The position numbers and the translations under genes were made by a program. The notes beneath the pieces are model-generated. The model ran no database searches. It was not told the origin of the DNA and saw only the letters and a program-made list of their open reading frames with translations. Positions 1 through 17,138 of a DNA stretch of 64,000 nucleotides are shown piece after piece (within the stretch, counting starts at the first letter, position 1; each line of letters starts with the position of its first letter). This DNA comes from Cyclobacteriaceae bacterium (GTDB taxonomy: Bacteria; Bacteroidota; Bacteroidia; Cytophagales; Cyclobacteriaceae), in contig JAEUUF010000022.1 in NCBI GenBank assembly GCA_016787645.1, forward strand, positions 1 to 64,000, read 5' to 3'.

Positions 1-1
1 G

Positions 2-223
2 ACTTTTTCCCGCGAGATGACCCTAAGCCTCCTCGCCAAGTCCACCCCGGAGGCAGATGGCCTCAAGTGGATCCAGGCCGAACATCGTCGGTATCCTGAA
101 TTTGTCCAGGCCCAGACGGGCATGATGCAGGGAGCCGCGGGTATTGGTCTCTGGTTACTTAGACTGAACGCGTTTGAAAAGAAAACCAGGCGGTTGATCC
201 GGTTGCCGGATGATCCATTTTGA
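2..223 (+). CDS. LanC-like (lanthionine synthetase C family) protein, C-terminal fragment
   Basis: This is the last 73 codons of a gene that begins upstream of the window; the frame is open from base 2 to the stop at 221-223. The segment carries W-x-QAEHR, then a PEF-x-QAQTG-MMQGAAGIG-WLLRL stretch and ends LPDDPF. That pattern is what I know from the C-terminus of bacterial LanC-like proteins, where the toroid closes on the GxxxGxxGIG-type helix. The zinc-binding Cys/His motifs of LanC would lie upstream, so activity cannot be judged. No lantibiotic precursor is visible here, and stand-alone LanC-like proteins are common in Bacteroidota, so a lantibiotic role is not implied. Confidence 0.7.
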   Translation, partial: TFSREMTLSLLAKSTPEADGLKWIQAEHRRYPEFVQAQTGMMQGAAGIGLWLLRLNAFEKKTRRLIRLPDDPF

Positions 224-255
224 TGTTGTGAATTTCTCCTGGCTTTGCATCAAAG

Positions 256-591
256 TCACTTCGCCCCTTGCTGAATCCAGCACAAGATAACAGCCTTCTC
301 CCTGGCGGTCAGCCGTGCTGATCCAACTGGAGGCATGGCGCCTCGCGTCAATTGAAAGTAGATGTCTGAAGTGTTGGCTTGTACTTCTTCCAATGTGATC
401 AGGCGGGGAATTCTTCCATTGGCTCCATCATGACAGCCGGAATAGCTGCAGGTGGCGTTTATGGTGGGTTGGATGGAGTTTTGAAAACTCACCGGAACAT
501 CCGCAGAGCAGACCGGAATGATTTCATCCTGCGGCTGGTGCGTGCACCCAATTGCCAAGAAGCCAACGAAAAGCCAACCGCTTCCCTTCAT
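256..591 (-). CDS. Small cytochrome c-like lipoprotein
   Basis: A 111-residue protein with a lipoprotein signal (hydrophobic run ending AIGC, Cys at about residue 16). The middle holds C-SYSG-CH, a CX4CH variant of the haem motif CXXCH, and a later G-AMPP that could give the distal Met ligand. This arrangement (lipobox, spaced CX4CH, GxMPP) recurs in small Bacteroidota c-type cytochrome-like lipoproteins, which would sit in the periplasm and carry electrons. Because the spacing is not classical CXXCH, covalent haem binding is uncertain. It stands alone between the LanC-like fragment (convergent) and an IS remnant. The opposite strand also has an open frame here, but without recognisable features. 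Confidence 0.6.
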   Translation of the reverse strand: MKGSGWLFVGFLAIGCTHQPQDEIIPVCSADVPVSFQNSIQPTINATCSYSGCHDGANGRIPRLITLEEVQANTSDIYFQLTRGAMPPVGSARLTAREKAVILCWIQQGAK

Positions 592-654
592 TTGCCAGTA
601 GTCTTCATTACCTACAAAGGTTAGGGGCCCGTGTTACAGTACGGCGAACGGCAG

Positions 655-865
655 GTTATGCTCGTGTTAACCAGTCATTAGTGATTCCATAATTTCCAGG
701 TTAGAAAGACATTGTCACACGGGCTCAACTTCAGTCAGAGTTGCTTGTATACAGCATGTCCTTGCGATATCTGCGATTGAAGCGTTCGATCAAGTTATTT
801 TGGAAATTCCGTCAATGGTGAACACGTCATTTCGCGCCAAAGTCATACGAATATTTGATGTCAGT
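655..865 (-). pseudogene. IS3-family transposase (orfB) remnant, decayed
   Basis: The 366 bases between the lipoprotein and the AIPR gene hold no intact gene, but minus-strand translation of 752-805 reads NNLIERFNRRYRKDML, the signature around the last catalytic Glu of IS3-family integrase-core transposases. Further downstream at 668-685 the same frame reads NDWL, matching the NDWL/EWL block before the RPH motif. Several in-frame stops and at least one frame change lie between and around these blocks, so this is a dead fragment. I could not define terminal inverted repeats. It marks the left edge of the AT-rich defence island. Confidence 0.6.
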
Positions 866-957
866 GCTCAACCGACATCAATGAACTTTTAGCTTTCGCC
901 TTTGAGGCAAAAAAAACCCTTTTCACTTTAGGCTAGATCTCCAACAGCTCAAACAGT

Positions 958-2964
958 CTACGAAAACCCTTCTTCTTTTGCTTGTTTAATAATTCTTAGG
1001 GCATTTTTTGCTTGCTTCGGAGACAAGGTTTTTCTTCTACTTGCCAATACCCCCATGTTGTAAGCAAATTTTCTGTCAAAAGGAGTGAAGTAATTATTCA
1101 CTTTAGCCCATTTTGAAAGCGAGAACCAAACCTCAGCATCGATCAGTCCAGCTTCTTCAATCATCATTACTTCTTGAGGTGATAAAGATACTGCCTTAAG
1201 GTCCATCTTACTTTCTTCCTTGGAGGCCTTGATTATCAATCCACCAGTATCGATAGTCTCATCTTTTAAAGTAAGCCAGCACTCAGGAGATTTGCACCAT
1301 TCACCAATGTTTCCGCCCTTCTTAGCAGGCGAATTAATCTGCTTCCATACAATATTTATCATGCTATCAATGGAATTGTTCAATGCCTCGCTAATACCCT
1401 GCTTTTCCCAAATATCATTGAGGTCAAGTTTGGAATTTGTCTTGTAAGCAAGCAGTGCAATTACATAAGCAACTATATTGGCTTTATACCCTCCTAACTT
1501 CTTCGCAGCAACCAATCGATCAATTTCCTTAAATAGAATTGCCTTCGCAATTAGGTCATGATAGTAAGCAGAGCTTATGTGCCCTATTTTACTTATCAAC
1601 AAGGAAAACGATTTGAAGTTTTTTTCCGCGCCCTTACTAACCTCGAATGGCTGTTGCCACCAGCTCATTTCATACTTAGCCAAATCTGTTTTTGTGAATT
1701 TTTGACTTCTTGGATACTCTCTTTCAAATAATTTAGAATCTTTAACCGAAAGTCTCGATCTCTCATCAAGAAATTGTCCGCGAGTTCGTTCATAGTACCA
1801 TTTATGGGTAGCCTTGCCTCCAGTTCTTGCTGGCACCCACTCACTTCTCGAGAAATCTTGAATTTTATTGTGATAGTCATCGTTAGAACTAAAGTCTGAC
1901 TCTCTAATTATTGTTTGAGTATTTGCATATCGCGATATCTTCTCTATTACTTTTTCTGTTTCCTCCTGAAGAAGTACGACTGAGATTTTCATTTGAACAA
2001 ATACTTTTGACAAGTCAACTCCCTTCTCTGCGGCTGCCGTAAATATCGAGGCAGTAGTTTGGCCACCGTTAACGACTTGCCAATTCTCAATTCGTGTTAT
2101 ATATGGGATATTCTCTTCATACACAACGTTCACCCGCTCGGCTGTTGTAGAGATGCCATTATTGTATGCAAGGAACATGTCAGGTTCACTGATAATCGTT
2201 TCCCGAATCTTCTTATTGACACGTGCCTTGAATTGGAGGAATGTTCGAACATTCTTTTCTAAGAGTCCTTGTTTATACTTGTTATAGATTGATGCCAAAA
2301 TCGTCCCCGGTATTATGGCCAGATAAACATCCACTCTATCACTTACTTTGTTCATCTGTAAACAATTCAGCTTATGATCGAAATCACTTACAAAATCAAT
2401 TTCAATCTTTTGTTTACCAGAGCGGATCAGATATTGTTGATAAACCCTTTCAATGTCCCAAAGTTGAAAGTCAATAAATACTCCAGTTTGCTCTTTCGTC
2501 TCAGGGACAATATCAGCAGATGCCTGTCCATTAGTAAGAACAAATATTCTGAGATTTGTAACTGCATCCTTGGTTTGCTCGGTTATCTGAACTAAGTCGA
2601 AAACGGCTGCTTCAGACTCCTCGACTTTACCTACTAATTTCCCGTCTCTCGCTGACCAAAAAAAATGTTCAGCTTTTAAGAAAGCCTCTTGGACCTCCCT
2701 GTCAGATACTTTTGTAAGACGTTGTTCACCCTTGAAAATGGTTACAAATAAATCTATACTTTCGTTTTCATCGTCATAGTTCCATGCGTTAACCTTCATT
2801 CCTTTGATTTTGTAATGACATGTCTCGCCAGCAATTACTTCTCCCGAATCAATAATATATTCGAGTATGTCATTTGTGATTGCATCCTCCTGCGAAATGC
2901 CCTCATCCTCAACTGTGATCAATGCGCCCTCCAGGAATTCAACTGCAAATTCTGATAGTTCCAT
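958..2964 (-). CDS. AIPR family protein (abortive infection/phage resistance associated)
   Basis: A protein of 668 residues. Two blocks typical of the AIPR family (Pfam PF10592) are visible: LAYNNGIS-TTAERV near residues 265-278 and WQVVNGGQTTASIF near 295-308. AIPR proteins are known mainly from operons of restriction-modification or abortive-infection type; their biochemical role is not settled. I place the start at the ATG at 2964, two bases after the TGA of the preceding gene, because the slightly longer frame would begin with TTG. It is the last gene of a four-gene operon (GHKL ATPase, Z1 ATPase, PD-(D/E)XK protein, AIPR). Base composition is AT-rich like the rest of the island. Confidence 0.85.
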   Translation of the reverse strand: MELSEFAVEFLEGALITVEDEGISQEDAITNDILEYIIDSGEVIAGETCHYKIKGMKVNAWNYDDENESIDLFVTIFKGEQRLTKVSDREVQEAFLKAEHFFWSARDGKLVGKVEESEAAVFDLVQITEQTKDAVTNLRIFVLTNGQASADIVPETKEQTGVFIDFQLWDIERVYQQYLIRSGKQKIEIDFVSDFDHKLNCLQMNKVSDRVDVYLAIIPGTILASIYNKYKQGLLEKNVRTFLQFKARVNKKIRETIISEPDMFLAYNNGISTTAERVNVVYEENIPYITRIENWQVVNGGQTTASIFTAAAEKGVDLSKVFVQMKISVVLLQEETEKVIEKISRYANTQTIIRESDFSSNDDYHNKIQDFSRSEWVPARTGGKATHKWYYERTRGQFLDERSRLSVKDSKLFEREYPRSQKFTKTDLAKYEMSWWQQPFEVSKGAEKNFKSFSLLISKIGHISSAYYHDLIAKAILFKEIDRLVAAKKLGGYKANIVAYVIALLAYKTNSKLDLNDIWEKQGISEALNNSIDSMINIVWKQINSPAKKGGNIGEWCKSPECWLTLKDETIDTGGLIIKASKEESKMDLKAVSLSPQEVMMIEEAGLIDAEVWFSLSKWAKVNNYFTPFDRKFAYNMGVLASRRKTLSPKQAKNALRIIKQAKEEGFS

Positions 2965-2966
2965 GG

Positions 2967-3968
2967 TCAAATTAGGGTCAATAAATCACTTTGAACTTCA
3001 TATGGCCTACAAGCTGAGACAACAACAGAATATTTCAAATCCCCCACCCCATTGGGCAAACTATGCTGCAGTAGTCTGGGAAAACCCTCTGCTACATGGA
3101 AGACATTCATCTCAACTATTGAAAAGCCCATGCTGTATTTGCTTGCATGTGCTTCATTATAGCCATACTTGGCTAGTTTTACTTGAAACTGAAAGACTGA
3201 AAAAAGATCCTCTCGAATTTGAGTCATAATACTCCTTATCAATACAGGCAAGGTGTGGTCGGGCATGTTAGAATGGATGTTCAATGCGTACAATCCAACA
3301 TACAAGTGGCTAAGTCCTGTTGAGTCAAGCTGCCTTTCAGACGAAACAGCGAATTTCTTATGCTGTTTACTTGAAGTCGATTTTATTTCAACTGCAATAT
3401 TTCGAATCTGAAAATCGTGGTTGGTTCTCTCTGAACCAGTCCAATATGATAAAGACTCAGAAAAAGAATACTTACGAAACAATACATCTTTGAGAAAAAA
3501 CAATTCACTCACGAGGCCCTTTTGAACTGAAATTGGAAGTATTTTCTTCTCACTCCTTTCAAAAAATAGCTTCCACTCCGTAAGGTTTTTGACAATGGTG
3601 TTAACAAATGATTGCCTGTTGGTTATTCGATCAATCTTATCACACATATCTGAAACAAATAATTCAAATATGCTACCAGTACTTGGAATAGTTTGAGAAA
3701 GTTTCAAGAATAATTCTTTGTTAAATTCCCCGAGGGATAAGACATCCAAAGTAATTTCAAGGCCCTTCATCGAAGGAAAAGCTCCGATACTAATGTCATT
3801 ACTATCATCCAGTTTTATATAGAGCAAACGAATTCCCTTAGCAAAATCGCTTGCTAGAAAAATCGGAAATATTCCTTCATTCGGAATTCGTCTAGCTATT
3901 TGGCGGTGTTCCTTGCTATTTCTAGACTCGGCATTGATAGAATTCCATATGCTATTATAATCAATCAT
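2967..3968 (-). CDS. PD-(D/E)XK nuclease-fold protein (DUF4420-like)
   Basis: A 333-residue protein. The likely nuclease core is G-LVSELFFL around 151-159 (conserved Glu), followed by HDF (Asp185) and VEIKST (Glu194, Lys196), the D-x(8)-ExK pattern of PD-(D/E)XK nucleases. Overall shape and partners match the PD-(D/E)XK motif family often found beside Z1 ATPases. It would supply DNA cleavage to the system; this is inferred from motif and context. Its ATG overlaps the end of the Z1 gene by 8 bases, and its stop lies two bases before the AIPR start, so the genes are probably translationally coupled. Confidence 0.8.
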   Translation of the reverse strand: MIDYNSIWNSINAESRNSKEHRQIARRIPNEGIFPIFLASDFAKGIRLLYIKLDDSNDISIGAFPSMKGLEITLDVLSLGEFNKELFLKLSQTIPSTGSIFELFVSDMCDKIDRITNRQSFVNTIVKNLTEWKLFFERSEKKILPISVQKGLVSELFFLKDVLFRKYSFSESLSYWTGSERTNHDFQIRNIAVEIKSTSSKQHKKFAVSSERQLDSTGLSHLYVGLYALNIHSNMPDHTLPVLIRSIMTQIREDLFSVFQFQVKLAKYGYNEAHASKYSMGFSIVEMNVFHVAEGFPRLLQHSLPNGVGDLKYSVVVSACRPYEVQSDLLTLI

Positions 3969-6711
3969 AATCAGCTAGTTCTAACTCTTCATAGACACTA
4001 TTTATATCATATGTAGATTGTTTTAGGCCATCATTATTTGGCCAACTAACAGCAAACCCGAAAGGCATTCGTTCGAGACTAATTGGATTCTCCGATTCGT
4101 CAGTTACCTTCAAGGGATAAATAAACAACAATGGCGTGTTAATTCTAGGTGGCAACTTCCTTAGCGTCTCACCTGTGGCTGATTCTCCAGGCGGAAAGTC
4201 AAGCTTCTCATCATTCGGGCTGACCAATCTTTTTATGTATAGCCTGTCATTCACAAAAGGCTCTTTGATAGATCTTGTTATTGGTTTTACGTGCAGCCCT
4301 CCAACCAACGATAGCTCTTGCTCATTTGACCTATTCAATGATATTAGAGCCACGTTCCAATTGTCGAGAATGTGATTTGGATCATTCCCTTCCCTCTGCT
4401 TTTCAATAAACTCAACTATTCGTTTTGTGCTTGAGGCTGGAGCTCCGCGAAAAGACGTGTACCTATTGAAAAATGAAACTACAGTAGCTCTTGAGACATT
4501 GGTCCATAGATAGTTACTTTCGACTCCTCTTGGAGAAGGAACTCCTAAAGAGCGAATAAATTCCTCAACCGCATTTGCATTATTTATTAAAATAGATTTT
4601 TCCCCGGAAATTGAGGCGGTCTCTGTCAATTTCCCCTTGTAACTAAGTGGCATAGTACTTGCGTACCTCATCTTCATTGCATTAGTAGCCATCATATCGG
4701 GATGCGATAGTACTCTTAGTCCAAACTCCATTGGTGTGGCCTTCTGCCTACTCATTTCTAAAAACTCCTTGCGTAGAATTTCAAACGCAGTGGATATATG
4801 CCTATACCAGCTGAACAAATCAGGTGTTGTATATATTCTGCATAAGTCTTCAAATCCCATTCTGTACCCAAACCAACGCCCCATTTGCATAAGCGTATCG
4901 TATAACGAGCTTGCTCTGGTAAAATAACTTACAGTCAGTCCTTCCAAAGTGAGGCCACGGGAAAGCTTATCTCCACCAATGGCTATAACACTGAGACCAA
5001 CACTTTCTCTGTTTTTGTAATCAAGGATATCACCTGCGCTTCCATTTATAAGATGTGGTCTTCGCTCCATTTTCAAGATTGCAGGCCTCAAATTATCATA
5101 TACTTCAGACCACTCAATCACAGGAAAATTCATAATTGAACTAATTCGCAAGTAATCTCTTTCAAACAATGATTGTAACTCCAAGAATATGTCAGTATCG
5201 TTGCTTATGATACCGTTTCTTAATCTGTTGAACTCAGTTTCTACAAATCCTCCAATAGCATTTTGAATGTCGTTGAATCGGGTGCAGTGTATAAGCATTG
5301 TGTTGTGCCTATTGCCTTGACCTCGAACTCTCCTAATCGCAGAACTTAACAGAAAAGATTTGATCGCTTCCTTCATGGAATCAGGAATATCCGTAGGGAT
5401 ATCTGTCATCCTGTGTCGCAGTGGAAGAAATTCGGAATCCACCTGTGATGCATCTAAAACGGGGATGTGAATTGGCATGCCCCTTTCCCTCTCATCATCA
5501 TTTAGTCCGAAAATTTGAACAGGGCCAAAGTAGTTGGATGGCGCTTCCATTGAAATGATAAATGAGGAGGGAAATAAGTCCCTTCCATAAACAGAATGCT
5601 CACTATCATGATGAATGAAGATGTTCGCAAAAGGAGTTGCGGTATATCCTATGTAAGCTTTCTGATTGAACAGATTTAGAATTTGCCTAATATTCTTGTT
5701 GATGGCAGTTGGATCTAGTTCTCCATCATCATTTGAAAGTGCTCTGGTATTAGGGGTTGCCTGATCTGCCTCATCATCAATAAGGAGGAGAGGAAGATTA
5801 TTAAGTGTGGAACTAGTCTCATTGACACGAAGAACAAATTCGCCATCAAGCGTGTCCAAACATTCCCGAAAGTACCTTATGAGATTCCCAAGAACCGACA
5901 CATTCTTTTTGACAACAAGAAGCATTGGCCTATCTGAACCAGGCTGAATACCACCAACTTGTTGAGCAAAGCTTCTTGAAAAATCACCACCATCATCTTG
6001 TGTGGTGAATGTATCCACATTTATGTACCCTTCATTTGGAAGGGTGGTGACTCCAATTCTTTTCAATTGCGCCTGGTCACTTGTATCCCTTCCAATAACT
6101 TCTTCGTCAATGCGCATTTGGGTTTGACTCCTTAGATTTTTGTGCATCCCACTAAGGACGATTATGATTTTATAACCGCTGTCAATTGCTTTATTTATTA
6201 CACCAGTAAAGTTTGCTGTTTTACCAGATTGGACATAACCTACAACCAAGCCTCTCCGATCAAACTCCCTATTACGGTCCCTAGGATCCTCTAACCTTTC
6301 AATAATATCATCAGTTATTTCATCAAGGCGATTAATTGTCTCAGTATTCCAGCCCTTTATGTTCGTAAGGTACTTCTTGTAACGGTTCCAAAATCTGAAC
6401 TCGATTCCATTGGCAGCAACTTTTTCGCGATACCAGGGCTTGTGGCCACTATTATCGGTTAATACATGATGCTCACCAGCATTAACTCCTTGATTAATAT
6501 TTACTTCATATTGAAGCTCAGATAGAAGTAAATCCTCAATGTCATCTTTTGAATTAAATGTAAGAGTTGGGTGGACAATATTAGGATAATCGATGGAATC
6601 CATTACCGACCTAATTGCCCTATCTAACGCCTGCTGATACGGAAGAATATCCTTAAAAAGCTCGTAGTTATCCTTAACAATACTCTTAATAAAATTGTAA
6701 GGCCGTTTCAC
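3961..6711 (-). CDS. Z1 domain superfamily-2 helicase-like ATPase
   Basis: A 916-residue protein beginning with GTG seven bases after the GHKL gene. ATPase motifs are clear: Walker A-type GYVQSGKT (about 158-165), Walker B LLIDDEAD (309-316), motif III TATPF (357-361), motif V GGDKLSRGLTLEGL (579-592) and motif VI QMGRWFGYR (609-617). QSGKT with QMGRWFGYR is characteristic of the Z1 domain family (PF10593), helicase-like proteins found with GHKL ATPases in restriction-type conflict systems. It probably couples ATP hydrolysis to DNA translocation or remodelling for the nuclease encoded next. All catalytic motifs look intact, so the protein should be active. Confidence 0.9.
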   Translation of the reverse strand: MKRPYNFIKSIVKDNYELFKDILPYQQALDRAIRSVMDSIDYPNIVHPTLTFNSKDDIEDLLLSELQYEVNINQGVNAGEHHVLTDNSGHKPWYREKVAANGIEFRFWNRYKKYLTNIKGWNTETINRLDEITDDIIERLEDPRDRNREFDRRGLVVGYVQSGKTANFTGVINKAIDSGYKIIIVLSGMHKNLRSQTQMRIDEEVIGRDTSDQAQLKRIGVTTLPNEGYINVDTFTTQDDGGDFSRSFAQQVGGIQPGSDRPMLLVVKKNVSVLGNLIRYFRECLDTLDGEFVLRVNETSSTLNNLPLLLIDDEADQATPNTRALSNDDGELDPTAINKNIRQILNLFNQKAYIGYTATPFANIFIHHDSEHSVYGRDLFPSSFIISMEAPSNYFGPVQIFGLNDDERERGMPIHIPVLDASQVDSEFLPLRHRMTDIPTDIPDSMKEAIKSFLLSSAIRRVRGQGNRHNTMLIHCTRFNDIQNAIGGFVETEFNRLRNGIISNDTDIFLELQSLFERDYLRISSIMNFPVIEWSEVYDNLRPAILKMERRPHLINGSAGDILDYKNRESVGLSVIAIGGDKLSRGLTLEGLTVSYFTRASSLYDTLMQMGRWFGYRMGFEDLCRIYTTPDLFSWYRHISTAFEILRKEFLEMSRQKATPMEFGLRVLSHPDMMATNAMKMRYASTMPLSYKGKLTETASISGEKSILINNANAVEEFIRSLGVPSPRGVESNYLWTNVSRATVVSFFNRYTSFRGAPASSTKRIVEFIEKQREGNDPNHILDNWNVALISLNRSNEQELSLVGGLHVKPITRSIKEPFVNDRLYIKRLVSPNDEKLDFPPGESATGETLRKLPPRINTPLLFIYPLKVTDESENPISLERMPFGFAVSWPNNDGLKQSTYDINSVYEELELADYD

Positions 6712-6718
6712 TCTATTC

Positions 6719-8179
6719 TCAGCTTAATTGTTGAAAACTCTCAATTCGGCTAGCTTTGTCAATAGCTTCGCTTTCTGTCAATCCTGCATTTATGAGGGCT
6801 TTAATAGTATTCTCATAAATCCTCCTTAGTTCACCTTTTGAGTCTTCGAAAAATTCCTTCATTATAATTGCAGGATCTGAAAAATCATTTACTATAAAAT
6901 TTATTGGTAGCGTTTCTCCAACCAATCTAATAAAATCCTTGAAGACATAGCTTTCATCTTCAAGATACTCCAAAATCAGTTGGTAGACTGGGTGGTCACT
7001 ATTAATTTCATAATAGCGTTTTCCGTGTTTTTGTCGGGCTTTCCACAGATACACTATTTCTTTTTTCTCTGCTCTTCTCTTGACATATGCCCCCCTATGT
7101 GTATAGACCTTGATAGCTTTCTCAATGGACGAAAAGCAAATGTTCTTAATCTGCTTTCTTATACTATCGGGAATTTTAGCGGATGCTTTCTTAACATCAA
7201 TTTGCCACTCTTTGTCTAGCGTGTTTGGGATATCAATTCGAATTCTACAAAGCCTTTGACTCTCCTTTTTCTTGAAGTCTAGGTCTAACCAAGTTCCATC
7301 CGAGATCAGTCTCTGATTTCTGTACAAATAAATTCCTTGATGTTCAGTCCATCCCCTAATAATTTCTATTTGACTTCGTTCTTCGGTTGATAGTTTTGAT
7401 TCATGCGGCAATATGAATGGTTGCACTGATATATTTTTCTTGTCTATTGAAAGATGCTCCTCTGCAAGTTCTGTCGTGGGTGCATTCTTTGAAATGTGAA
7501 AAGGGTTTATCGATACTATTTCATTATTCAGGACTTTGATTGAAATCAGATTCTCTTCAATGTAACGATGAAACACGAGGCCCAAATGCTTGCGCACATT
7601 ATCAAACTTCCGATAAAAGTGCTCCTTGTCAGCGGCCTTCTCACCCACTTCCAATAATCTATCAAGTTTTTCCCAAAGAATTACTGTTCCACTTCCATTT
7701 GAAGAAATGTTACCGAGAATCTCTTCTGAATTGCTATCAAAAGAATCATGCAACAATATCCAGTCCTTCTTTCTTGCAACTAGATCCAAGTCCCAACATC
7801 TTACGACAGTGTTGCCAGACTTGCTTCTGGATTTTACGGTAAGCCTTCTGCATTGTGAGAATGATGCTGTTTTTAACCCTAAGCCAAACCTTCCCAGATC
7901 ATTTTCACGCCTAGGATCCAAGGGATTAAAACTGCCAATCTTCATGGCATTTATAAGTGCCTGTTGGTTCATTCCTTTCCCGTCGTCTTCGATTCGTACG
8001 TAGGAGGAAAAGTGACTGATACCGTACGTAATGTTTACACAGGATGCTTCGGCGGTTATGCTGTTGTCAATCAAATCCGCAATTGCTGTTTCCACAGTAT
8101 AACCAAAAGATCTGACCGACTGAAGAAAATGCTCAGCTTGAGGTCTTACTATGTCGAATGATTTGCCTCCTTTAGCCAT
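6719..8179 (-). CDS. GHKL (HSP90/MutL/MORC-type) ATPase
   Basis: A 486-residue protein with an N-terminal GHKL ATPase: N-box ETAIADLIDNSI (30-41), G1 box EDDGKGM (64-70) and G2 box GRFGLGLKTASFSQ (96-109). The remainder looks like a transducer domain and a helical tail. GHKL proteins dimerise on ATP binding and act as clamps; those paired with Z1 ATPases are relatives of eukaryotic MORC proteins. It opens the four-gene operon and is separated from dcm by about 310 bases, so it likely has its own promoter. A CAGCTT-TGC-AAGCTG palindrome lies 43 bases upstream of the ATG. All nucleotide-binding motifs are intact. Confidence 0.87.
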   Translation of the reverse strand: MAKGGKSFDIVRPQAEHFLQSVRSFGYTVETAIADLIDNSITAEASCVNITYGISHFSSYVRIEDDGKGMNQQALINAMKIGSFNPLDPRRENDLGRFGLGLKTASFSQCRRLTVKSRSKSGNTVVRCWDLDLVARKKDWILLHDSFDSNSEEILGNISSNGSGTVILWEKLDRLLEVGEKAADKEHFYRKFDNVRKHLGLVFHRYIEENLISIKVLNNEIVSINPFHISKNAPTTELAEEHLSIDKKNISVQPFILPHESKLSTEERSQIEIIRGWTEHQGIYLYRNQRLISDGTWLDLDFKKKESQRLCRIRIDIPNTLDKEWQIDVKKASAKIPDSIRKQIKNICFSSIEKAIKVYTHRGAYVKRRAEKKEIVYLWKARQKHGKRYYEINSDHPVYQLILEYLEDESYVFKDFIRLVGETLPINFIVNDFSDPAIIMKEFFEDSKGELRRIYENTIKALINAGLTESEAIDKASRIESFQQLS

Positions 8180-8489
8180 CTGAATTCAAGTTAAGATCCA
8201 ATAGAAATTAATCGTAAGTCACAGCTTTGCAAGCTGATTTGGATTTACGCTCCAACTTATCTGAATTGTAGCACTTAGGTTCCATTTTGGCACCAATTTG
8301 TTTGCCGGTTTTGAACGAATCTAATTTTTGGTTCCTCCACTAGATTTGACACTAAACAGAGAAAATAATTTTAAGATTTTTGTTTGGGCATATTCCCATA
8401 ACCAAGTCTTGCATATGCTGTTTCATTGAACCTTGACAGGTAGTAACTCACATATGAGTCAAAGCGCATGGTTAGGATTCATTTTTGAA
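8180..8489. other. AT-rich intergenic spacer between dcm and the GHKL operon
   Basis: No open frame with coding character is visible. Two small perfect inverted repeats occur: CAGCTT-TGC-AAGCTG at 8222-8236 and ACTCA-CATA-TGAGT at 8446-8459. The first lies just upstream of the GHKL start and could be an operator; the second is just past the dcm stop. No convincing TAnnTTTG promoter box was found on the minus strand. The spacer most likely carries the promoter of the four-gene operon, by inference from layout. Confidence 0.4.
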
Positions 8490-9740
8490 TTATAAAATCT
8501 CCTTTAATGCCTTAGCAATACTTTCAGCCATAAGAGGGGGGACCGCATTTCCAATTTGTTTAAATGCTGCTGTTCTGTTCTTGCCTTCTCTAACACCTTC
8601 AAAATAGAAATCATCCGGAAATGATTGTAGTCTCGCAGCTTCTCGAACCGTAATTGATCTGTTCTGATTCAAATCTGGATGAATATAATAATGCCCGTCC
8701 TTAGCAATATGCGCCACAATTGTTTGCGCAAAATGAGATGAACCATCAACCACTTTAAACCTATCAAAAAATGAATGCTGATTAGAATGAGTTTTTAAAC
8801 GTTTGGGAAGATTGACGTAGTTTAGTCGATTACCTTGCCTCAACTGTTCAATGGCAATTCGGTAGATTTCTTTGTCTTGTGTTGTATGTGGTCGACTAAT
8901 ATGCTGTGTTAACACCTCTAATCCGTTCCGAATATTGGATTGCAGTAAGTATTTATTCGGTGCTTTCTTGTATGTGCTGTATTTATCATTTCCTTCGCCA
9001 GCGTGTAGCTTTGGTAAGTCTTCGAAAACGCATTTCACTTTGTATTTTGAATTAGAGAAATGTTTGAATTCAGGCGATTGAAAGGAAAAGCTCCTTCGAT
9101 AACCAATCAGAATTATTCTCTTTCTTCCTTGAAGAACACCAAAATCCCGCGCATTGAAAAGAAACGTCTTGATGTCATAGCCCGCTTTACTGAATTCTTC
9201 CTTCATCTTTTCGAAATAGCTTCCGCCTCCGGCGGAACGCAGTCCTACAACATTTTCGAAAACAAATAACTTTGGGTTATACCGCCTCAAATACTTTGCA
9301 TACTGGAGATATAGGTAGTTTCTGGGATCATTTGTCATTCCTGTTCTGCTCCTAGCTCTACCAACCAGGGAGTATGCTTGACAAGGTGGTCCTCCAATTA
9401 TTAAGTCAACGTCCTTACTTTTTAATAGTGAGTCAATTTGCTTAAAAATAGTTTCATTAGATTCTGTCGATAAAGCCATATTTATGACACCTGCCAATTC
9501 TTTTTTGGGGACTTTATTGTACAATTCATTTCTAGTAATCTCCCCTTTAAGATACTTCAAGTAGGTATTGTAGTGGTTCCCCTTTTTGAGATAATGGTAA
9601 GCAGCTCGTGTTTTTAACGTATAGCATGCAGCCTCATCCATTTCAACGTGTGCGATAGGCCGGAACCCCGAACGAATAAAGCCTTCAGAGAGGCCACCGG
9701 CACCCGCAAAGAGATCAAGATAAGATAGGGTATGCGGCAT
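8490..9740 (-). CDS. dcm: DNA (cytosine-5) methyltransferase
   Basis: A 416-residue C5-cytosine methyltransferase. Motif I DLFAGAGGLSEGF (9-21) binds S-adenosylmethionine; motif IV GGPPCQAYS (116-124) holds the catalytic Cys120; FENV (motif VI), QGRKRIILIG (motif VIII), VREAARLQSFP (motif IX) and QIGNAVPP (motif X) follow in the normal order. Recognition is set by the region between VIII and IX and cannot be read from sequence. It sits 24 bases after vsr, so the two are probably one transcript. In the island it could mark self DNA for the GHKL-Z1-nuclease-AIPR module. There is a spacer of about 80 residues between motifs I and IV, longer than in minimal enzymes. Confidence 0.93.
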   Translation of the reverse strand: MPHTLSYLDLFAGAGGLSEGFIRSGFRPIAHVEMDEAACYTLKTRAAYHYLKKGNHYNTYLKYLKGEITRNELYNKVPKKELAGVINMALSTESNETIFKQIDSLLKSKDVDLIIGGPPCQAYSLVGRARSRTGMTNDPRNYLYLQYAKYLRRYNPKLFVFENVVGLRSAGGGSYFEKMKEEFSKAGYDIKTFLFNARDFGVLQGRKRIILIGYRRSFSFQSPEFKHFSNSKYKVKCVFEDLPKLHAGEGNDKYSTYKKAPNKYLLQSNIRNGLEVLTQHISRPHTTQDKEIYRIAIEQLRQGNRLNYVNLPKRLKTHSNQHSFFDRFKVVDGSSHFAQTIVAHIAKDGHYYIHPDLNQNRSITVREAARLQSFPDDFYFEGVREGKNRTAAFKQIGNAVPPLMAESIAKALKEIL

Positions 9741-9764
9741 ACTTACGTTTTCAGAGGATTTTGA

Positions 9765-10181
9765 TCATGATAATATGGCTGCTTTTAGCTTATTCAAGGT
9801 CTTCTCCCTCAGAGAGGGCCTTAATTTACATTCGAAGATTGTAAAGACTTGCCATCCTTTGTCCTTCAATACTCTTTTATGCTGGGCGTCAGAAACTCGA
9901 GTCGTTTTGATTTTATCAGTCCACCACTTAGTTCTCGTCTTTGGTATTACAAAGTACTTGCAACCTTCATGTCCATGCCAAAAACATCCATTTATAAAAA
10001 GAACTGTTCTGTATTTTGATAGAATAATATCTGGCTTTCCTGGAAGGGATTTGCTATGGAGACGAAATCTAAATCCTTCAGAGAATAAATATTTTCTGAC
10101 CAAGATTTCAGGCTTTGTGTTCTTGCTCCTTATCTTACTCATGTTGAAGCTCCGCGTCGCTGTATTGTGCACGTCTGCCAT
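9765..10181 (-). CDS. vsr: Very short patch repair (Vsr) endonuclease
   Basis: A 138-residue Vsr endonuclease. The N-terminus has MSKIRSKNTKPE, the core LPGKPDIIL contains the catalytic Asp (about residue 51), and NGCFWHGHEGC with downstream Cys/His supplies the structural zinc site. Vsr nicks beside T:G mismatches that arise when 5-methylcytosine deaminates, and is usually encoded next to its cognate C5 methyltransferase, as here (dcm 24 bases downstream). This pairing shows that the island's methyltransferase makes 5-methylcytosine. Length is normal for the family. The start ATG lies about 60 bases from the terminator that closes ssrA. Confidence 0.93.
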   Translation of the reverse strand: MADVHNTATRSFNMSKIRSKNTKPEILVRKYLFSEGFRFRLHSKSLPGKPDIILSKYRTVLFINGCFWHGHEGCKYFVIPKTRTKWWTDKIKTTRVSDAQHKRVLKDKGWQVFTIFECKLRPSLREKTLNKLKAAILS

Positions 10182-10240
10182 ATATCAGATAGGGATTACA
10201 ATATCGTATGTAAATTCGTATGCAGGAAGTTAGAAAATGC

Positions 10241-10268
10241 AAAAGCCGCGAAATCTCGCGGCTTTTTT
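10241..10268 (-). terminator. Rho-independent terminator of ssrA
   Basis: A ten-base-pair stem (AAAAGCCGCG with CGCGGCTTTT) around a six-base loop lies ten bases beyond the tmRNA 3' end. On the minus strand it gives a GC-rich hairpin followed by TTTT, a typical intrinsic terminator. The symmetrical A/T flanks mean it may work in both directions. It separates ssrA from the vsr promoter region. Confidence 0.85.
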
Positions 10269-10278
10269 AGTGAAGTTG

Positions 10279-10671
10279 TGGAGCTGCAGGGAATCGAACC
10301 CTGGTCCAGAGAAGATGAACGTGTACGTTCTACATGCTTAGTTGACTTTGATTGTCGGGAAACAGAAGGCAGGCAACAGCCTCACCACTTCCTTAGTCGC
10401 TGTTGTCTCGACACCCGTGCGCGACACACGAGGGCCCAGTTTTGCTGAACGACACCGCAAATCCGGCTCCCGCAAAACAGAGGCGCCGGGCGATGATGGC
10501 CTCCAGGGATCTTATCCCCGGATAAGCTAATCCAACCTTAGGTCAGATTAAGCAGCCATGGCGTAGGTATTCTCGCCACGTAGAATTCGAGAGCAGTGGT
10601 TAAGGCTCTACCCTCATGAGCCTGCATGCTGGCATACACCCTCACACATCCTGTCAAAACCGGTCAGCCCC
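10279..10671 (-). ncRNA. ssrA: tmRNA (transfer-messenger RNA)
   Basis: The 5' end GGGGCTGACC and the 3' end GGTTCGATTCCCTGCAGCTCC-A pair to form the tRNA-like acceptor stem, with a T arm containing TTCGATTC. The tag reading frame at 10577-10548 encodes GENTYAMAA followed by TAA, close to tags known in Cytophaga-type bacteria. The tRNA-like and pseudoknot sequences lie on either side. The acceptor A at 10279 is followed by CAA rather than CCA, so CCA is added after transcription. tmRNA with SmpB rescues stalled ribosomes and tags nascent proteins for proteolysis. A terminator follows at 10241-10268 and a promoter box lies upstream at 10715-10722. Confidence 0.96.
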
Positions 10672-10714
10672 AGGTAATGGCAATTGAATAGTGACTAATG
10701 AGCCAAATCAGAGA

Positions 10715-10722
10715 CAAAGGTA
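10715..10722 (-). promoter_or_regulatory. Bacteroidota-type -7 promoter box for ssrA
   Basis: On the minus strand this reads TACCTTTG, an exact match to the Bacteroidota -7 consensus TAnnTTTG, 43 bases upstream of the mature tmRNA 5' end. That leaves a short 5' precursor for RNase P to remove. No clear -33 TTTG element stands at the right distance, so support is partial. Confidence 0.5.
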
Positions 10723-10787
10723 GATGAAAAATAGTTCCATAGTGGATTTCCTGCCTCACTCCACCACTCACCTGTTCCCCTGTTCTG

Positions 10788-10834
10788 CCCCCCTCTCCGC
10801 TTGCGGAGAGGGGCTGGGGGTGAGGTCTTTTTTT
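10788..10834. repeat. Dispersed hairpin repeat, CCCTCTCC...GGAGAGGGGCTGGGGGTGAGG type
   Basis: A ten-base-pair stem (CCCCTCTCCG with CGGAGAGGGG) is followed by CTGGGGGTGAGG and T7 on the plus strand. A related copy lies in opposite orientation at 47718-47756. This kind of purine-rich hairpin with a GGGGGTGAGG tail is a recurring intergenic repeat. It lies between divergently transcribed ssrA and the 10880 gene. Nothing else is recognisable in 10723-10879. Confidence 0.6.
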
Positions 10835-10879
10835 CACTAAATTACTCCCACAAGATTTCTACCACCGAAAGCCACTCCT

Positions 10880-11626
10880 ATGGAAAAGCGCTGCCTCATC
10901 ATCCTACCTAAAACCGACCCGGAGGGATACCCCAAGGGACACTTCAACCGGGTTTACCAATACATTGTCGTGCCCGCATGCCGGTTCGCTGGATTTACGC
11001 CCAGCAGGGCTGACGACCCCATCGCCAGCGATACCTCCATGGATATCCTGAAGAATATTGTGGAGTATGAGGTCGTTCTCTGTGACCTGAGCTCAAATTT
11101 CCCGCTATCGCTCTATGGGTTTGCTATCCGCCAGGGCCTCAACCTCCCGGCTGCGCTGATGCACGATACCAAGTCCCGGATCGCCATGGAACTGAAAGCC
11201 ATGGGCGCTGTTGAATACGACGAGTCGCTCCGCATCGATACCGTCCAAAATGAAATTGAAGCACTGAGCAAAGTGCTGACGCAGACGTTTGATAATCGTC
11301 CGGAAAGAAATTCCCTGCTGAATCGGCTGGAGATCGGAACGCCGCCACCCGCCGAAGCTCCATCGCAGACCGTGGATGTACCCGAGGCCCACTTGCCTGT
11401 CATCAGCCCCATCCCCGATGATGTAGGCGAGCCCATGCTCAAACTGGAAGAGCTTAACGCACTCCAGTCAGGCGACGAGGTATTCCATATCAACTATGGA
11501 AAAGGCAAAATCAAGGTGGTCTCCAAAATGGCCAAAGACAAAGTGGCCAGAATTGAGTTTGATTCAGGATCAAAACTGCTGGTGCTGATTCCTTCCGGTA
11601 TCTTCCGGAAAATCAAAGGGAAGTAG
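10880..11626 (+). CDS. TIR/deoxyribosyltransferase-like domain fused to UvrD/PcrA-type tudor domain
   Basis: A 248-residue protein. Residues 1-110 resemble the nucleoside deoxyribosyltransferase/TIR-like fold: a beta strand CLIILPKTDP, a segment VVLCDLSSNFP-LSLYGFAIRQGL (65-87) equivalent to the DLTxxNPNVFYELGxRH motif of such domains, then ALMHD. A variable Pro-rich linker (150-190) joins a C-terminal module (196-245) with GDEVFHINYGKGKI and IEFDSGSKLLVLIPSGIFRKI, like the tudor-like end of UvrD/PcrA helicases, which contacts RNA polymerase. The canonical Glu of the N-terminal family (YELG) is replaced here by YGFA, so catalysis is doubtful. Function unknown; it lies next to ssrA and the defence island but has core-like composition. 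Confidence 0.55.
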   Translation: MEKRCLIILPKTDPEGYPKGHFNRVYQYIVVPACRFAGFTPSRADDPIASDTSMDILKNIVEYEVVLCDLSSNFPLSLYGFAIRQGLNLPAALMHDTKSRIAMELKAMGAVEYDESLRIDTVQNEIEALSKVLTQTFDNRPERNSLLNRLEIGTPPPAEAPSQTVDVPEAHLPVISPIPDDVGEPMLKLEELNALQSGDEVFHINYGKGKIKVVSKMAKDKVARIEFDSGSKLLVLIPSGIFRKIKGK

Positions 11627-11669
11627 CCACGAAACCGTATCTGTTTCTCAGGCCTTCCTGAACCTTGAA

Positions 11670-12644
11670 CTAATCGATCCCTACCCGATCGATGATCAGG
11701 TATTCTTTCTTGGAAATTGACTGGCGGGCAATCAGCTCAGCAATGAAGCCAGTCAAAAATAATTGAACCCCGATAATCACCGCCGCCAGCGCCAGGTAGA
11801 AAATGGGCTGCTGCGTTACTTCTCGCTTTAAGGGAATCTTTGACAAGTAGACGCTGTCCAGCTTGTCCCATAGAATCTTTGCTGTAAAGAAGAAGCCAAC
11901 CAGGAAGGAGATGATCCCCCAGGTTCCGAAGAAATGCATCGGCCGGCGGGCAAAGCGACCGACAAAGGTGATCGTCAGCAAATCCAGGAAGCCCCGCAAG
12001 AAGCGCTCAAACCCAAACTTGCTACTTCCGTATTTCCGCTCCCGGTGTTCAACAATTTTCTCGCCAATCCGTGTAAAACCCGCCCACTTCGCCATCACCG
12101 GAATGTAACGGTGCATCTCCCCGTACACGGAGATGCTTTTCACCACCGTTCGTCGATAAGCCTTGAGACCACAATTAAAGTCGTGCAACCGGATGCCGGA
12201 AATGCGACGGGTTACAGCATTGAAGAACCAGGAAGGAAGTGTCTTTGAAATAGGGTCGTGTCGCTTTTTCTTCCAACCAGATACCAGGTGATACCCGTCA
12301 TCACGAATCATCGTGTACAAGGCGGGGATTTCGTCCGGGCTATCCTGGAGGTCTGCGTCCATCGTGATCACCACCTCTCCCTGGGCAGCGCGAAAGCCGG
12401 TATGGAGCGCAGCGGATTTACCAAAGTTTCTGTTAAAGCGAATGGCCTTCACAGACGGGTTTGACGCATTCAATGCCACCATCGCCTCCCAGGTCCTGTC
12501 CGAGCTTCCATCATCGATAAAGATGATCTCATAGGAATAACCCTTCGCTTTCATGACCCGGTCAATCCATGCACCCAGTTCGGGAATAGATTGCTCCTCG
12601 TCCTTAGCCGGGATGATGACCGATATGTCCAACTTGTTCGTCAA
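11670..12644 (-). CDS. Family 2 glycosyltransferase (polyprenyl-phosphate type)
   Basis: A 324-residue GT2 enzyme. The GT-A domain has VIIPAKDEE (9-17), IDDGSSDRT (43-51) and the metal-binding DAD with DLQDSPDE (96-105). Two predicted membrane helices at about 241-258 and 285-310 close the protein, as in GtrB/ArnC/DPM1-like transferases that load a sugar on undecaprenyl phosphate at the inner membrane. The sugar is not predictable. The most upstream usable start is TTG at 12644; an ATG start would remove the first strand. It ends a minus-strand run with the DUF4199 genes, the dihydroorotase-like gene and the BatA-like gene, a layout I recognise from Cytophagales. Confidence 0.87.
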   Translation of the reverse strand: MTNKLDISVIIPAKDEEQSIPELGAWIDRVMKAKGYSYEIIFIDDGSSDRTWEAMVALNASNPSVKAIRFNRNFGKSAALHTGFRAAQGEVVITMDADLQDSPDEIPALYTMIRDDGYHLVSGWKKKRHDPISKTLPSWFFNAVTRRISGIRLHDFNCGLKAYRRTVVKSISVYGEMHRYIPVMAKWAGFTRIGEKIVEHRERKYGSSKFGFERFLRGFLDLLTITFVGRFARRPMHFFGTWGIISFLVGFFFTAKILWDKLDSVYLSKIPLKREVTQQPIFYLALAAVIIGVQLFLTGFIAELIARQSISKKEYLIIDRVGID

Positions 12645-12674
12645 TGAAATGTCCCAGCGTACTTAGAATGTCCT

Positions 12675-13232
12675 CTAGATTTCTACAGGTTGGTTCTTGC
12701 GTACAAACAAGGCCGTAATCAATGAGCAAATCAGGTAGAAAATGAGCGCTTTGGCGTATCCCAACAGGAGGCCACTTACGCTGAACTGGCTGGCCATATC
12801 CACCCTCATTTTTTCAACTGCCTGGTCGATGGATTCCTGAGGAGCTCCAAAATTAGCCATCATTTCTTCTGTATTCGTGATGATGGCGTCGGTCATCTTT
12901 TGGGCGAGATCGGGGTCTATGACCGTGTACAGAACAAGATTAAACAAGGTGGAGACCAAACCGGAAATCGCAAATACCAGTAATCCATGCTGGAGTGCTT
13001 GACCGTACCCCAGGTATCCTCCAGCCTCGTTCCGATAGCTAATCCCAGCATAAATCACAAAACCTATCCCGATTACGAACATCAGGCCGAGAAACTTGAA
13101 AGTGGCCATGAAGGATAAATCAATCACGTAGATGAGAACGGTAATGATAATTGAAATAATCCCCAGAATCACACCATTCTTCATCGCGTGATTGATCAGG
13201 GAAGGCGGGGCAGTAGTTTCCTGGGTTTCCAT
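12675..13232 (-). CDS. DUF4199 membrane protein
   Basis: I place the start at 13232 (METQETTAP), since the upstream extension is not protein-like. The 185-residue product has four predicted membrane helices: about 19-38, 45-65, 82-105 and 155-180, with a soluble acidic loop containing EEMMANFGAP between the third and fourth. This matches DUF4199 proteins, common in Bacteroidota and of unknown role. A second DUF4199 gene lies directly upstream, and the two are probably an ancient duplication with partner roles. Confidence 0.8.
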   Translation of the reverse strand: METQETTAPPSLINHAMKNGVILGIISIIITVLIYVIDLSFMATFKFLGLMFVIGIGFVIYAGISYRNEAGGYLGYGQALQHGLLVFAISGLVSTLFNLVLYTVIDPDLAQKMTDAIITNTEEMMANFGAPQESIDQAVEKMRVDMASQFSVSGLLLGYAKALIFYLICSLITALFVRKNQPVEI

Positions 13233-13341
13233 ACGAGTTGGGTTTAGGGTATAAGTAGTTAAATGTAGTCTAAAATTACAGAGAATCCCGTGGGAATAAA
13301 AGCTGCCAAACCACTCTCCCACGAAGAAACGAAACCCTTCA

Positions 13342-13366
13342 GGTCACCGGTCACTGGTCACCGGTT
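13342..13366. repeat. Short heptamer tandem repeat (GGTCACC/GGTCACT)
   Basis: Three heptamers, GGTCACC-GGTCACT-GGTCACC, follow one another, then a partial GGT. The run covers the stop codon (13351-13353) and the last codons of the DUF4199 gene at 13351-13902. Different heptamer units occur in the array at 18200-18312. Confidence 0.6.
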
Positions 13367-13902
13367 AGTGCCGGCGTTCGGCGAAGAATGACAGAAAGAA
13401 TAATACTGACAAAGAAACTGATAATGAATGTCTGGAAGAAGTACCGCCCAGCCATGTAGTACTTGTCCGCCCGCTTCAATTCGTCGAGGCTTTGCTGAAA
13501 GGTCTCTTTGCCAATACGGTCAATGTCCTCGGGGGTGAACAACTTGGTTTGCTCTGTCGCCAACTGGATAAAACCGGTGACAAATTCCGGCACCAGGGAG
13601 GCGAAGCCAAGGATACCCAACCAGCACAATGCCGCGCACACCAACGTTACCAGAAAACTCAGTACCATCGATTGGCCAAAATAAAGCTGGCCGGACTGGT
13701 AGTCCTCTCGGAATTCCTTAAGTCCGAAAAACAACATGATCGCCAGGACAGGAACACGGGGGTCGAGGAACGGATTCACCAGGAAGGGATGGGTATCCAT
13801 ATAAAACATGGACACAACAAAAACGAGGACCAAAGCACCACTTAGCGCGCCGTAGCGGCTGGCTACTCGCAAAAAAGGAGATGACAAGAACTTATTCAAC
13901 AT
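13351..13902 (-). CDS. DUF4199 membrane protein
   Basis: A 183-residue protein with four predicted membrane helices (about 19-34, 48-60, 74-100 and 152-173). The loop before the last helix holds FTPEDIDRIGKETFQQSLDEL, similar in place to the acidic loop of the neighbouring DUF4199 protein. The gene overlaps the end of the dihydroorotase-like gene by 11 bases and is probably co-transcribed with it. Its C-terminal codons lie in a heptamer repeat, so the tail may vary between strains. Function unknown. Confidence 0.8.
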   Translation of the reverse strand: MLNKFLSSPFLRVASRYGALSGALVLVFVVSMFYMDTHPFLVNPFLDPRVPVLAIMLFFGLKEFREDYQSGQLYFGQSMVLSFLVTLVCAALCWLGILGFASLVPEFVTGFIQLATEQTKLFTPEDIDRIGKETFQQSLDELKRADKYYMAGRYFFQTFIISFFVSIILSVILRRTPALTGDQ

Positions 13903-15157
13903 CCGTAAAAACCTTGCCGTTGTTGAAGACGGCTACCACTTTGCCCTTCACCTTCTTACCAAACCAGGGTGAGTTCACGGCTTTGGATTGGTTAGTGGAT
14001 CCATCCAATACCCAGGTGCGGGAAGGATCCAGCAAAGTGAGGTTAGCCGACTCACCCACCTCAACCCGTGGAATCGTCAGACCAAGCACTTCCCGCGGTC
14101 CGCGGGTGACTTTCTCGATCAGGCTTTCCCAGGGAACCGCACCAGAAAGCTCCACCAGGTTGGAGGCGAAGGTCTGGAGATTGATCATTCCAAAATCAGC
14201 CTGGTCAAACTCAAGGTTCTTCGATTCTTCATCCTGCGGAAGGTGACCAGAACATATCACGTCAATCGTGTCATCGGAAAGACCTTTGACTAACGCTGTG
14301 TTGTCGGCCTTTTCGCGCAGCGGAGGACTAACCTTGTAATTGGTATCAAATTCGGCAAGCGCGCTGTCATCCAGCAAAGCCTGGTACCCGGTAATATCGC
14401 AGGTGACGGCAAGGCCTTTCTTCTTCGCCGCACGAACCAGTTCTATGCTTTTGGCCGTGGATAGCCGGCTGGCATGCAGTCGTCCTCCGACATAGCGAAG
14501 CAGATCAAGGTTGCGGCTGAGGGCCAGGCTCTCCGCAATCCCCGGCATCCCCTTTAGTCCGAGCATGGTACTGTTTACCCCCTCGTGCATCTGACCAAAC
14601 AGGTTTAGCCATGTGTCTTCGGGATGGTCGACGACGACACCGCCAAATTTCTGCGTGTATTGCAGTGCTTTGAGAAAAATATCGGTATGCCAAATCGTCT
14701 TGAGACCGTCGGTGAATCCGGCCGCCCCGGCCTCGTGGAGGTCGATCATCTCGGTAAGCTCCTCCCCTTTGTTATTGCGGGTGACGGATGCCAGCGGGTA
14801 CACCTGTACCAGGCGGTTGGCATTGCCGCCCATCAGGTAGCTGACTTCGTTCTTGGTTTGCACGCTGGGGTTGGTGTTGGGAAGAACGGCAAGACCCGTA
14901 AACCCACCGGCGGCGGCACTTTGGGTCGCCGAAGTCAGGTCTTCCTTCTGCTCGTAGCCTGGATCGCCTACATACGTGCCCAGATCAAACCATCCAGCCG
15001 AAAGGATCATGCCTTTCGCTTCAATGACCTTGTCCGCGGAAAACTTCTTATCCCCGATGTCTGCGATCTGACCGTTATGAATGAGAAGATTCTTGATTTT
15101 GTTGTGGACGGGTGAACCCGCGTTGAGAATTTTCGCGGATTGGATAAGAATCTTCAT
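13892..15157 (-). CDS. Dihydroorotase-like protein lacking the zinc ligands (pseudo-dihydroorotase)
   Basis: A 421-residue amidohydrolase-fold protein of the PyrC class I type: composite N-terminal beta-domain, MILSAGWFDLG-TYVGDPG (50-67), GGFTGLAVLPNTNP (84-97), GGRLHASRLST and C-terminal VEVGESANLTLLDP. In active dihydroorotases the first block reads DxHxHxRxPG; here both His and the Arg are replaced (G60, Y62, G64), and the TDHAPH motif reads SGHLPQ, losing the catalytic Asp. It therefore should not bind zinc or cyclise carbamoyl-aspartate. By analogy to Pseudomonas pyrC', it could be a structural subunit of aspartate carbamoyltransferase, with the active enzyme elsewhere. It overlaps the DUF4199 gene. 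Confidence 0.85.
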   Translation of the reverse strand: MKILIQSAKILNAGSPVHNKIKNLLIHNGQIADIGDKKFSADKVIEAKGMILSAGWFDLGTYVGDPGYEQKEDLTSATQSAAAGGFTGLAVLPNTNPSVQTKNEVSYLMGGNANRLVQVYPLASVTRNNKGEELTEMIDLHEAGAAGFTDGLKTIWHTDIFLKALQYTQKFGGVVVDHPEDTWLNLFGQMHEGVNSTMLGLKGMPGIAESLALSRNLDLLRYVGGRLHASRLSTAKSIELVRAAKKKGLAVTCDITGYQALLDDSALAEFDTNYKVSPPLREKADNTALVKGLSDDTIDVICSGHLPQDEESKNLEFDQADFGMINLQTFASNLVELSGAVPWESLIEKVTRGPREVLGLTIPRVEVGESANLTLLDPSRTWVLDGSTNQSKAVNSPWFGKKVKGKVVAVFNNGKVFTDVE

Positions 15158-15167
15158 TCAGGTCGGG

Positions 15168-17138
15168 TTACTTAAGGAACCGGATGAGCAACACTTCAGC
15201 AAGCAGGAAGATCAAGGCGGCAATCAGCGCATACTTCCACAATTGCCGGCCCAAATATCTCTCTTTTATTTCGTTGGAAAAAGACCCTTCTGCCGCGGGG
15301 CGAAAAACAGAGATGTTGTCTCCACCGCCCAGGTGAGCCTTCACCTCTTCCCCTGACCACTGTTCAAGGAGCGATTCCCGCTTATCCATGTCAAACGCGA
15401 TGAGCCCAAGTGTGTCCGACTGGATTCGCGCCACGTAGAAGCCAGGATCGACGAAGTACCTGGGGATTTCCAGGATAACGCGATCGCCATTGCGTCGCTG
15501 GGCCGGGATCACCTCTTGTTTTCCGGAAAGAGTGACCGGAGCTTCACCTGCCAGGCTATCCATCTGAAGTGTAGCAATTCGCTCACTCAATAAATAGTAT
15601 GGTTTCTGGCTAACCCGGTGACCCGAGGCCGCCATGCGGTACATCACTGGTACAAAAATGGCATGGTTCTGAAAATCCGACCAGGCGTTGTCCAATGGCG
15701 CGGCCAGCACATAGGTATTGCCGGATCGGGAAAGGAAAGGGGTACCGTCTTTGAAGGTCAGCAAGGCCGAACGATCGCTGCCCCAACTCACCACGGGTTT
15801 TGCCCTGGGCATGGCCATGGAGGCCGACTGTTCTTCAAATACATTCTCAAAGAAGGGGTTCTTGAAGTCGGGCTTTTCCAGTTCTTGCATTCCACCATCC
15901 TCCACCGGCGTCAGGGAAAGCTGGCCGGTGAGCGCACGTAATTCCCCAAGGCTTCCGTTAGGTGGAGGAATAATCAAGACAGTACCGGGGCCATCCTGAT
16001 ACTCTTTCACCGTGGTAGTTAAGCCCACATCGGGGTGGTCGATCCCATTGAGAATGACAAGGTCGGATTGGGCGAGAATTCCAAGGTCGACATTACCAGG
16101 GGAAAATGATCGGAAAGAAAACAGCGACGTATTTCCGAATACCTTTTCAATAAAGTTGGTGCCATTGCGTACTTCAGCTACCTGGATCTTGCCCGAGAAG
16201 TTCAAGGTGAGGTAGAAAAGATTGTCGAAGCTCACCGGGAAATCCGTAAAACTGATCACCAGACGGTTCATTCCACGCAGGCCCTGGGCCAGGTCGAACG
16301 TGACTACGGATACTGCGTTGGGCCCCATATCGACCGAAGCGGTGCCCGATTGCACGTCATTAATCGTCAGTTTAATAACAATTCCTTCCCGGGGCCGGAT
16401 CCCGTTGTTTCTCACGCGCACGTGTAGCGTGTTGCGCTGGCCGCCCACGATGAAAGGGTCCTCGAGATACACAGAATCAATGAATACATTAGACGCCTGC
16501 TCAAGTGGAAGCGCAACCAGGTGAAGGGATTGCGCACTGTCGACAGGTGATCCTTCCAGTTCGAGGGTGGACTTCTGAAAGTCCGATATCCAGAATAGTT
16601 CATTATTGCTGGCGGCAGATCGGTCGCGAACTTCCCGGTAAGTGCGTGATACCGGCGACTGCCTTACCTGGGTGAGCAGGTCAAGCAGCTCTGACTTGGT
16701 CTTGTAGTTATTGGAGAATGGGGCAAAATCATTGGTGATAAGTTTATAGCGGGTATCGGCCGGGAATAATGACGCGACTTCGCGGGCGAAAGTCAGTCCG
16801 GCATCAAGGGCCCGAACTTGTTCACCCACCGACGAGGTCATACTATAGGAATTGTCGAGGTAGAGCGTTACCTCCCTGCCTGGGGTGATTTGTTCTGTAG
16901 CCGGCAGGAATGGCTGGGCAAACGCAATGACAAGAAAAAACAAGAACAGCAGCCGGGAAGCAAGGACAAGATATTGCTTGAGTTTTCGCTTACGGGTCGT
17001 TTCCTGCCGCACCTGCTGAAGCAGCCGGGTGTTGGAGAACAAGATGCGTGTTGTTCTGCGGAAGTTGAAGAGGTGAATGATGACCGGGATGGCCAGTACC
17101 GTCAGTGCCCACAGAAAGAGAGGATAAGCGAAACTCAT
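15168..17138 (-). CDS. BatA domain-containing membrane protein (aerotolerance regulator N-terminal)
   Basis: Start chosen at 17138 (MSFAYPLFLW), giving 656 residues. The N-terminus matches the BatA-type module (PF07584): helix FLWALTVLAIPVIIHLFNFRR, then a second helix near 57-75. A von Willebrand A-like region follows with YLDNSYSMTS, a DxSxS metal site. The long central region contains beta-rich folds, and a last membrane helix ends the protein (KYALIAALIFLLAEVLLIRFL). Bat proteins are linked with stress tolerance and cell envelope, but their mechanism is unclear. It is the first gene of the minus-strand run with pseudo-dihydroorotase, 10 bases upstream of the latter. Confidence 0.8.
   Translation of the reverse strand: MSFAYPLFLWALTVLAIPVIIHLFNFRRTTRILFSNTRLLQQVRQETTRKRKLKQYLVLASRLLFLFFLVIAFAQPFLPATEQITPGREVTLYLDNSYSMTSSVGEQVRALDAGLTFAREVASLFPADTRYKLITNDFAPFSNNYKTKSELLDLLTQVRQSPVSRTYREVRDRSAASNNELFWISDFQKSTLELEGSPVDSAQSLHLVALPLEQASNVFIDSVYLEDPFIVGGQRNTLHVRVRNNGIRPREGIVIKLTINDVQSGTASVDMGPNAVSVVTFDLAQGLRGMNRLVISFTDFPVSFDNLFYLTLNFSGKIQVAEVRNGTNFIEKVFGNTSLFSFRSFSPGNVDLGILAQSDLVILNGIDHPDVGLTTTVKEYQDGPGTVLIIPPPNGSLGELRALTGQLSLTPVEDGGMQELEKPDFKNPFFENVFEEQSASMAMPRAKPVVSWGSDRSALLTFKDGTPFLSRSGNTYVLAAPLDNAWSDFQNHAIFVPVMYRMAASGHRVSQKPYYLLSERIATLQMDSLAGEAPVTLSGKQEVIPAQRRNGDRVILEIPRYFVDPGFYVARIQSDTLGLIAFDMDKRESLLEQWSGEEVKAHLGGGDNISVFRPAAEGSFSNEIKERYLGRQLWKYALIAALIFLLAEVLLIRFLK

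Follow-up and report, generated by a model that had tools for sequence, protein, structure and literature searches.

A predicted phage-defence operon of the Mza kind with an exchanged DNA methyltransferase in a Cyclobacteriaceae bacterium

Organization of the operon

The window, that is, the whole stretch of DNA analysed here, comprises positions 1 to 64,000 of contig JAEUUF010000022.1 (C22) of a Cyclobacteriaceae bacterium (GenBank assembly GCA_016787645.1). It carries a six-gene operon that is predicted to protect the bacterium against phages. Systems of this type are already described; they combine a DNA-marking enzyme with a MORC ATPase, a DNA motor, a probable nuclease and a helper protein. 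New here is an exchange of the marking enzyme, a C5 methyltransferase (MTase), with retention of the other four genes, the core. The six-gene set observed in a preliminary description of this DNA is real and its motifs are conserved. The features are as follows, with E values unless bits are given:

958-2970, minus strand: AIPR protein (MzaE homologue), 670 amino acids; Pfam AIPR 4.8e-94, AIPR_N 1.1e-35; PADLOC MzaE 9.7e-81
2967-3968, minus strand: DUF4420 PD-(D/E)XK-like protein, probable nuclease (MzaD homologue), 333 amino acids; Pfam 4.7e-69; PADLOC MzaD 5.3e-16
3961-6711, minus strand: core gene between the DUF4420 and GHKL genes
6719-8179, minus strand: MORC-type GHKL ATPase (MzaB homologue), 486 amino acids; Pfam HATPase_c_3 2e-31; PADLOC MzaB 4.1e-93
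8180-8489, no strand: 310-bp gap without a listed gene
8490-9740, minus strand: C5 cytosine MTase, class 4 of this study (DrmMII-like), 416 amino acids; Pfam 1.1e-62; PADLOC DrmMII 7e-173
9765-10181, minus strand: Vsr mismatch endonuclease, 138 amino acids; Pfam 5.3e-34; NCBIfam vsr 131.5 bits (cut-off 97.85)

In a phmmer search, the GHKL ATPase matches MORC4 weakly (7k7t, E 0.0092). Its residues 282-292, GIYLYRNQRLI, fit the pattern GhXhhpXXRhl by eye, and G282, Y286, R287 and R290 are invariant in 64 rows. In another core protein, D605, Q609, G611, R612, F614 and G615 of the motif DTLMQMGRWFG (residues 605-615, recognized by eye) are likewise invariant in 64 rows. In the DUF4420 protein, modelled with a pLDDT (predicted local distance difference test) of 91.4, residues E155, D185, E194, K196 and Q213 are invariant in 52 rows. 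The AlphaFold2 model of the AIPR protein has a mean pLDDT of 89.3 and a predicted template modelling score of 0.54.

Relation to described systems

The Mza system reportedly consists of mzaABCDE and dates from Gao in 2020; the name is carried in PADLOC and NCBIfam. Homologues of MzaB, MzaC, MzaD and MzaE are adjacent in the window in the same order (PADLOC 8e-173 for MzaC, the others as listed), as matched in the PADLOC search that the preliminary description had proposed. An Mza-like locus, L067, likewise has a C5 MTase and Vsr. In contrast, the window homologues of MzaB to MzaE score below the NCBIfam equivalog cut-offs, with 362 of 850, 674 of 1500, 110 of 420 and 355.5 of 1050 bits, respectively. 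A cluster of MzaA-like (ankyrin plus sigma-70) open reading frames (ORFs) spans 17 loci, with three members scanned in Pfam and one in PADLOC (MzaA 1.1e-82); it has no member among the window ORFs compared, to about 13.2 kb, the rest of the genome not having been searched. The MzaA-like proteins upstream of the GHKL gene in L026, L064 and L067 have ankyrin repeats fused to sigma-70 regions. The window operon is a divergent member of the described kind, with conserved motifs and without MzaA nearby.

No difference from the window operon was seen in the part of Miller 2022 (PMC9523054) describing putative defence system Type II, a text that does not tell whether the operon would be of II-A or II-B and that prints DUF4220, taken here to mean DUF4420. 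Similarly, no tested feature differs from the third MORC operon type in the consulted part of Iyer 2008 (PMC2292703), the restriction endonuclease fold itself being without PDB confirmation in the window. In the ATP-dependent restriction systems CglI, NgoAVII and BceSIV, the nuclease is a phospholipase D (PLD) protein with a B3 domain, according to the section consulted of PMC4267653; in contrast, neither PLD nor B3 was matched in the six window genes (Pfam, E ≤ 0.01). The window MTase is close to DrmMII of class 2 DISARM in PADLOC and has a target domain in common with a DISARM-like plasmid locus, whereas DrmA helicase and DrmB (DUF1998) were not matched in the five non-MTase genes (PADLOC, E ≤ 0.01).

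Methyltransferase exchange among related loci

The MTase module is exchanged between close relatives of the core: their core proteins are 49-75% identical, their MTases 31-35% and 19-24%. On the core tree, MTase class requires at least 15 changes (60 rows). The tree was a quick one, built without a mixture model, with support from the SH-aLRT (Shimodaira-Hasegawa-like approximate likelihood ratio test) only and with long-branch warnings, and leaves out L074 and L100, which have split genes. An MTase lies within 6 kb in 62 of the 66 full loci.

Most MTase classes keep two related target-domain lineages; in the window the target-recognition region lies at about 8655-9110. An initial regular-expression test missed the target domain in five of nine controls, and all nine were therefore rerun at full target length, this time only against the profiles of classes 4 and 1. 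At most three rows per class were scored in the first test and two in the rerun, with class 15 (one fragment) left out. Two controls of the first stage count against the test: L134, a HaeIII-type MTase, matched the class-0 profile (E 6.9e-5 over 34 columns), and L139 the class-1 profile (0.0011).

In most close relatives, a second MTase and one more gene occupy the position of the 310-bp gap. L050 (5335-8532) and nine kin have two unrelated C5 MTases in tandem ahead of the same core, mostly followed by a gene that is related to an HNH_2 protein of L078 but had no Pfam match itself in the two copies searched. No target was predicted for the window MTase. The leads conflict: GCNGC (GCAGC for Listeria mza, GCSGC for CglI/NgoAVII, GCWGC for BceSIV) versus CCWGG, which the review PMC11676413 cites for DISARM.

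Genomic setting

Directly upstream of Vsr lies a neighbour outside the system, with a terminator-like hairpin, seen by eye, between the two:

10276-10671, minus strand: transfer-messenger RNA (tmRNA) gene, ssrA; Rfam RF00023, 117.5 bits; not reported by ARAGORN

Insertion of the operon at ssrA was considered and rejected. With up to two mismatches allowed, the 18-base tmRNA end has two occurrences in its own genome, one at ssrA and one, with two mismatches, on contig C25. No integrase was seen among ORFs of at least 100 amino acids in 1-16000, seven of which were profile-searched. In a genus mate (G158, L147), ssrA is followed instead by a cystathionine-beta-synthase-like gene, named by eye. 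The left flank has no match in six relatives, and therefore no empty site was demonstrated. Contig C3 of this genome (L120) ends in 141 bases that are identical to window positions 1-141. A LanC-like reading frame, recognized by eye, extends to this contig end and is carried on in the window, so that C3 and C22 are probably adjacent. At about 10781-10827, a dispersed repeat of ~35-45 bases recurs at nine places on C3, C15 and C17 (86-90% identity). The second AIPR gene of the genome (L124, 1319-4939) adjoins a DNA-MTase-like gene, named by eye, and a 203-amino-acid protein, and belongs to a different, restriction-type locus.

On an Acinetobacter plasmid (L138, 10001-13203), an MTase of the window lineage is followed by a 648-amino-acid GHKL ATPase, behind TnsA/TniB/TniQ-type genes; the two may form a system of their own on a Tn7-like element.

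Proposed function

In the reading we favour, with a probability of roughly 0.6, the system would mount an ATP-dependent attack on DNA that is licensed by methylation. The core may either read the site of the MTase or only be repressed by methylation. Several observations weigh against this reading. No core segment clearly changes along with the MTase in comparisons made without L051, which nearly duplicates L050, and without L055 and L059, where no MTase was seen. Of 64 core loci, four lack an MTase within 6 kb, although two of these, L059 and L084, end close to the operon. A B3-like site-reading domain, as in R.CglI, was not matched in the core by Pfam search, and the AIPR protein is without assigned activity. 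Comparison of the DUF4420 model with PDB folds gave no match at E ≤ 0.001, and its top rows are mostly protein kinases; the nuclease call is therefore based on the Pfam assignment together with the E-D-ExK residues. The preliminary description had proposed that the ATPases license this nuclease on unmethylated DNA, with AIPR as effector or regulator. That proposal is partly supported.

A DISARM-like mode of action is a tentative alternative: the core would read no sequence and attack incoming DNA by its structure, methylated cytosines would switch it off, and any compatible C5 MTase could be plugged in as a self mark. Exchange of the module with no core segment clearly following is consistent with this, as are DrmMII being the best PADLOC model for the window MTase and the presence of its lineage, target domain included, in L135, a locus DISARM-like by annotation. 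For DISARM itself, the portion consulted of PMC9142583 states that the ATPase is slowed by methylated DNA and that targeting is enhanced when cognate sites are absent. Abortive infection, with AIPR as a toxic effector unleashed by the other genes on sensing phage DNA, is improbable, given that AIPR residues 1-235 have no invariant PD-(D/E)XK triad, that its model had no significant match in the fold comparison and that a subtype without AIPR exists. Least probable is that the core and the MTase-Vsr pair are neighbours without any relation; the many class changes and the four loci without an MTase within 6 kb would suit this, whereas the co-occurrence in nearly all full loci and the target-domain lineages kept by most classes argue against it. 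The MTase exchange is the one new handle that the window operon offers on systems of this kind.
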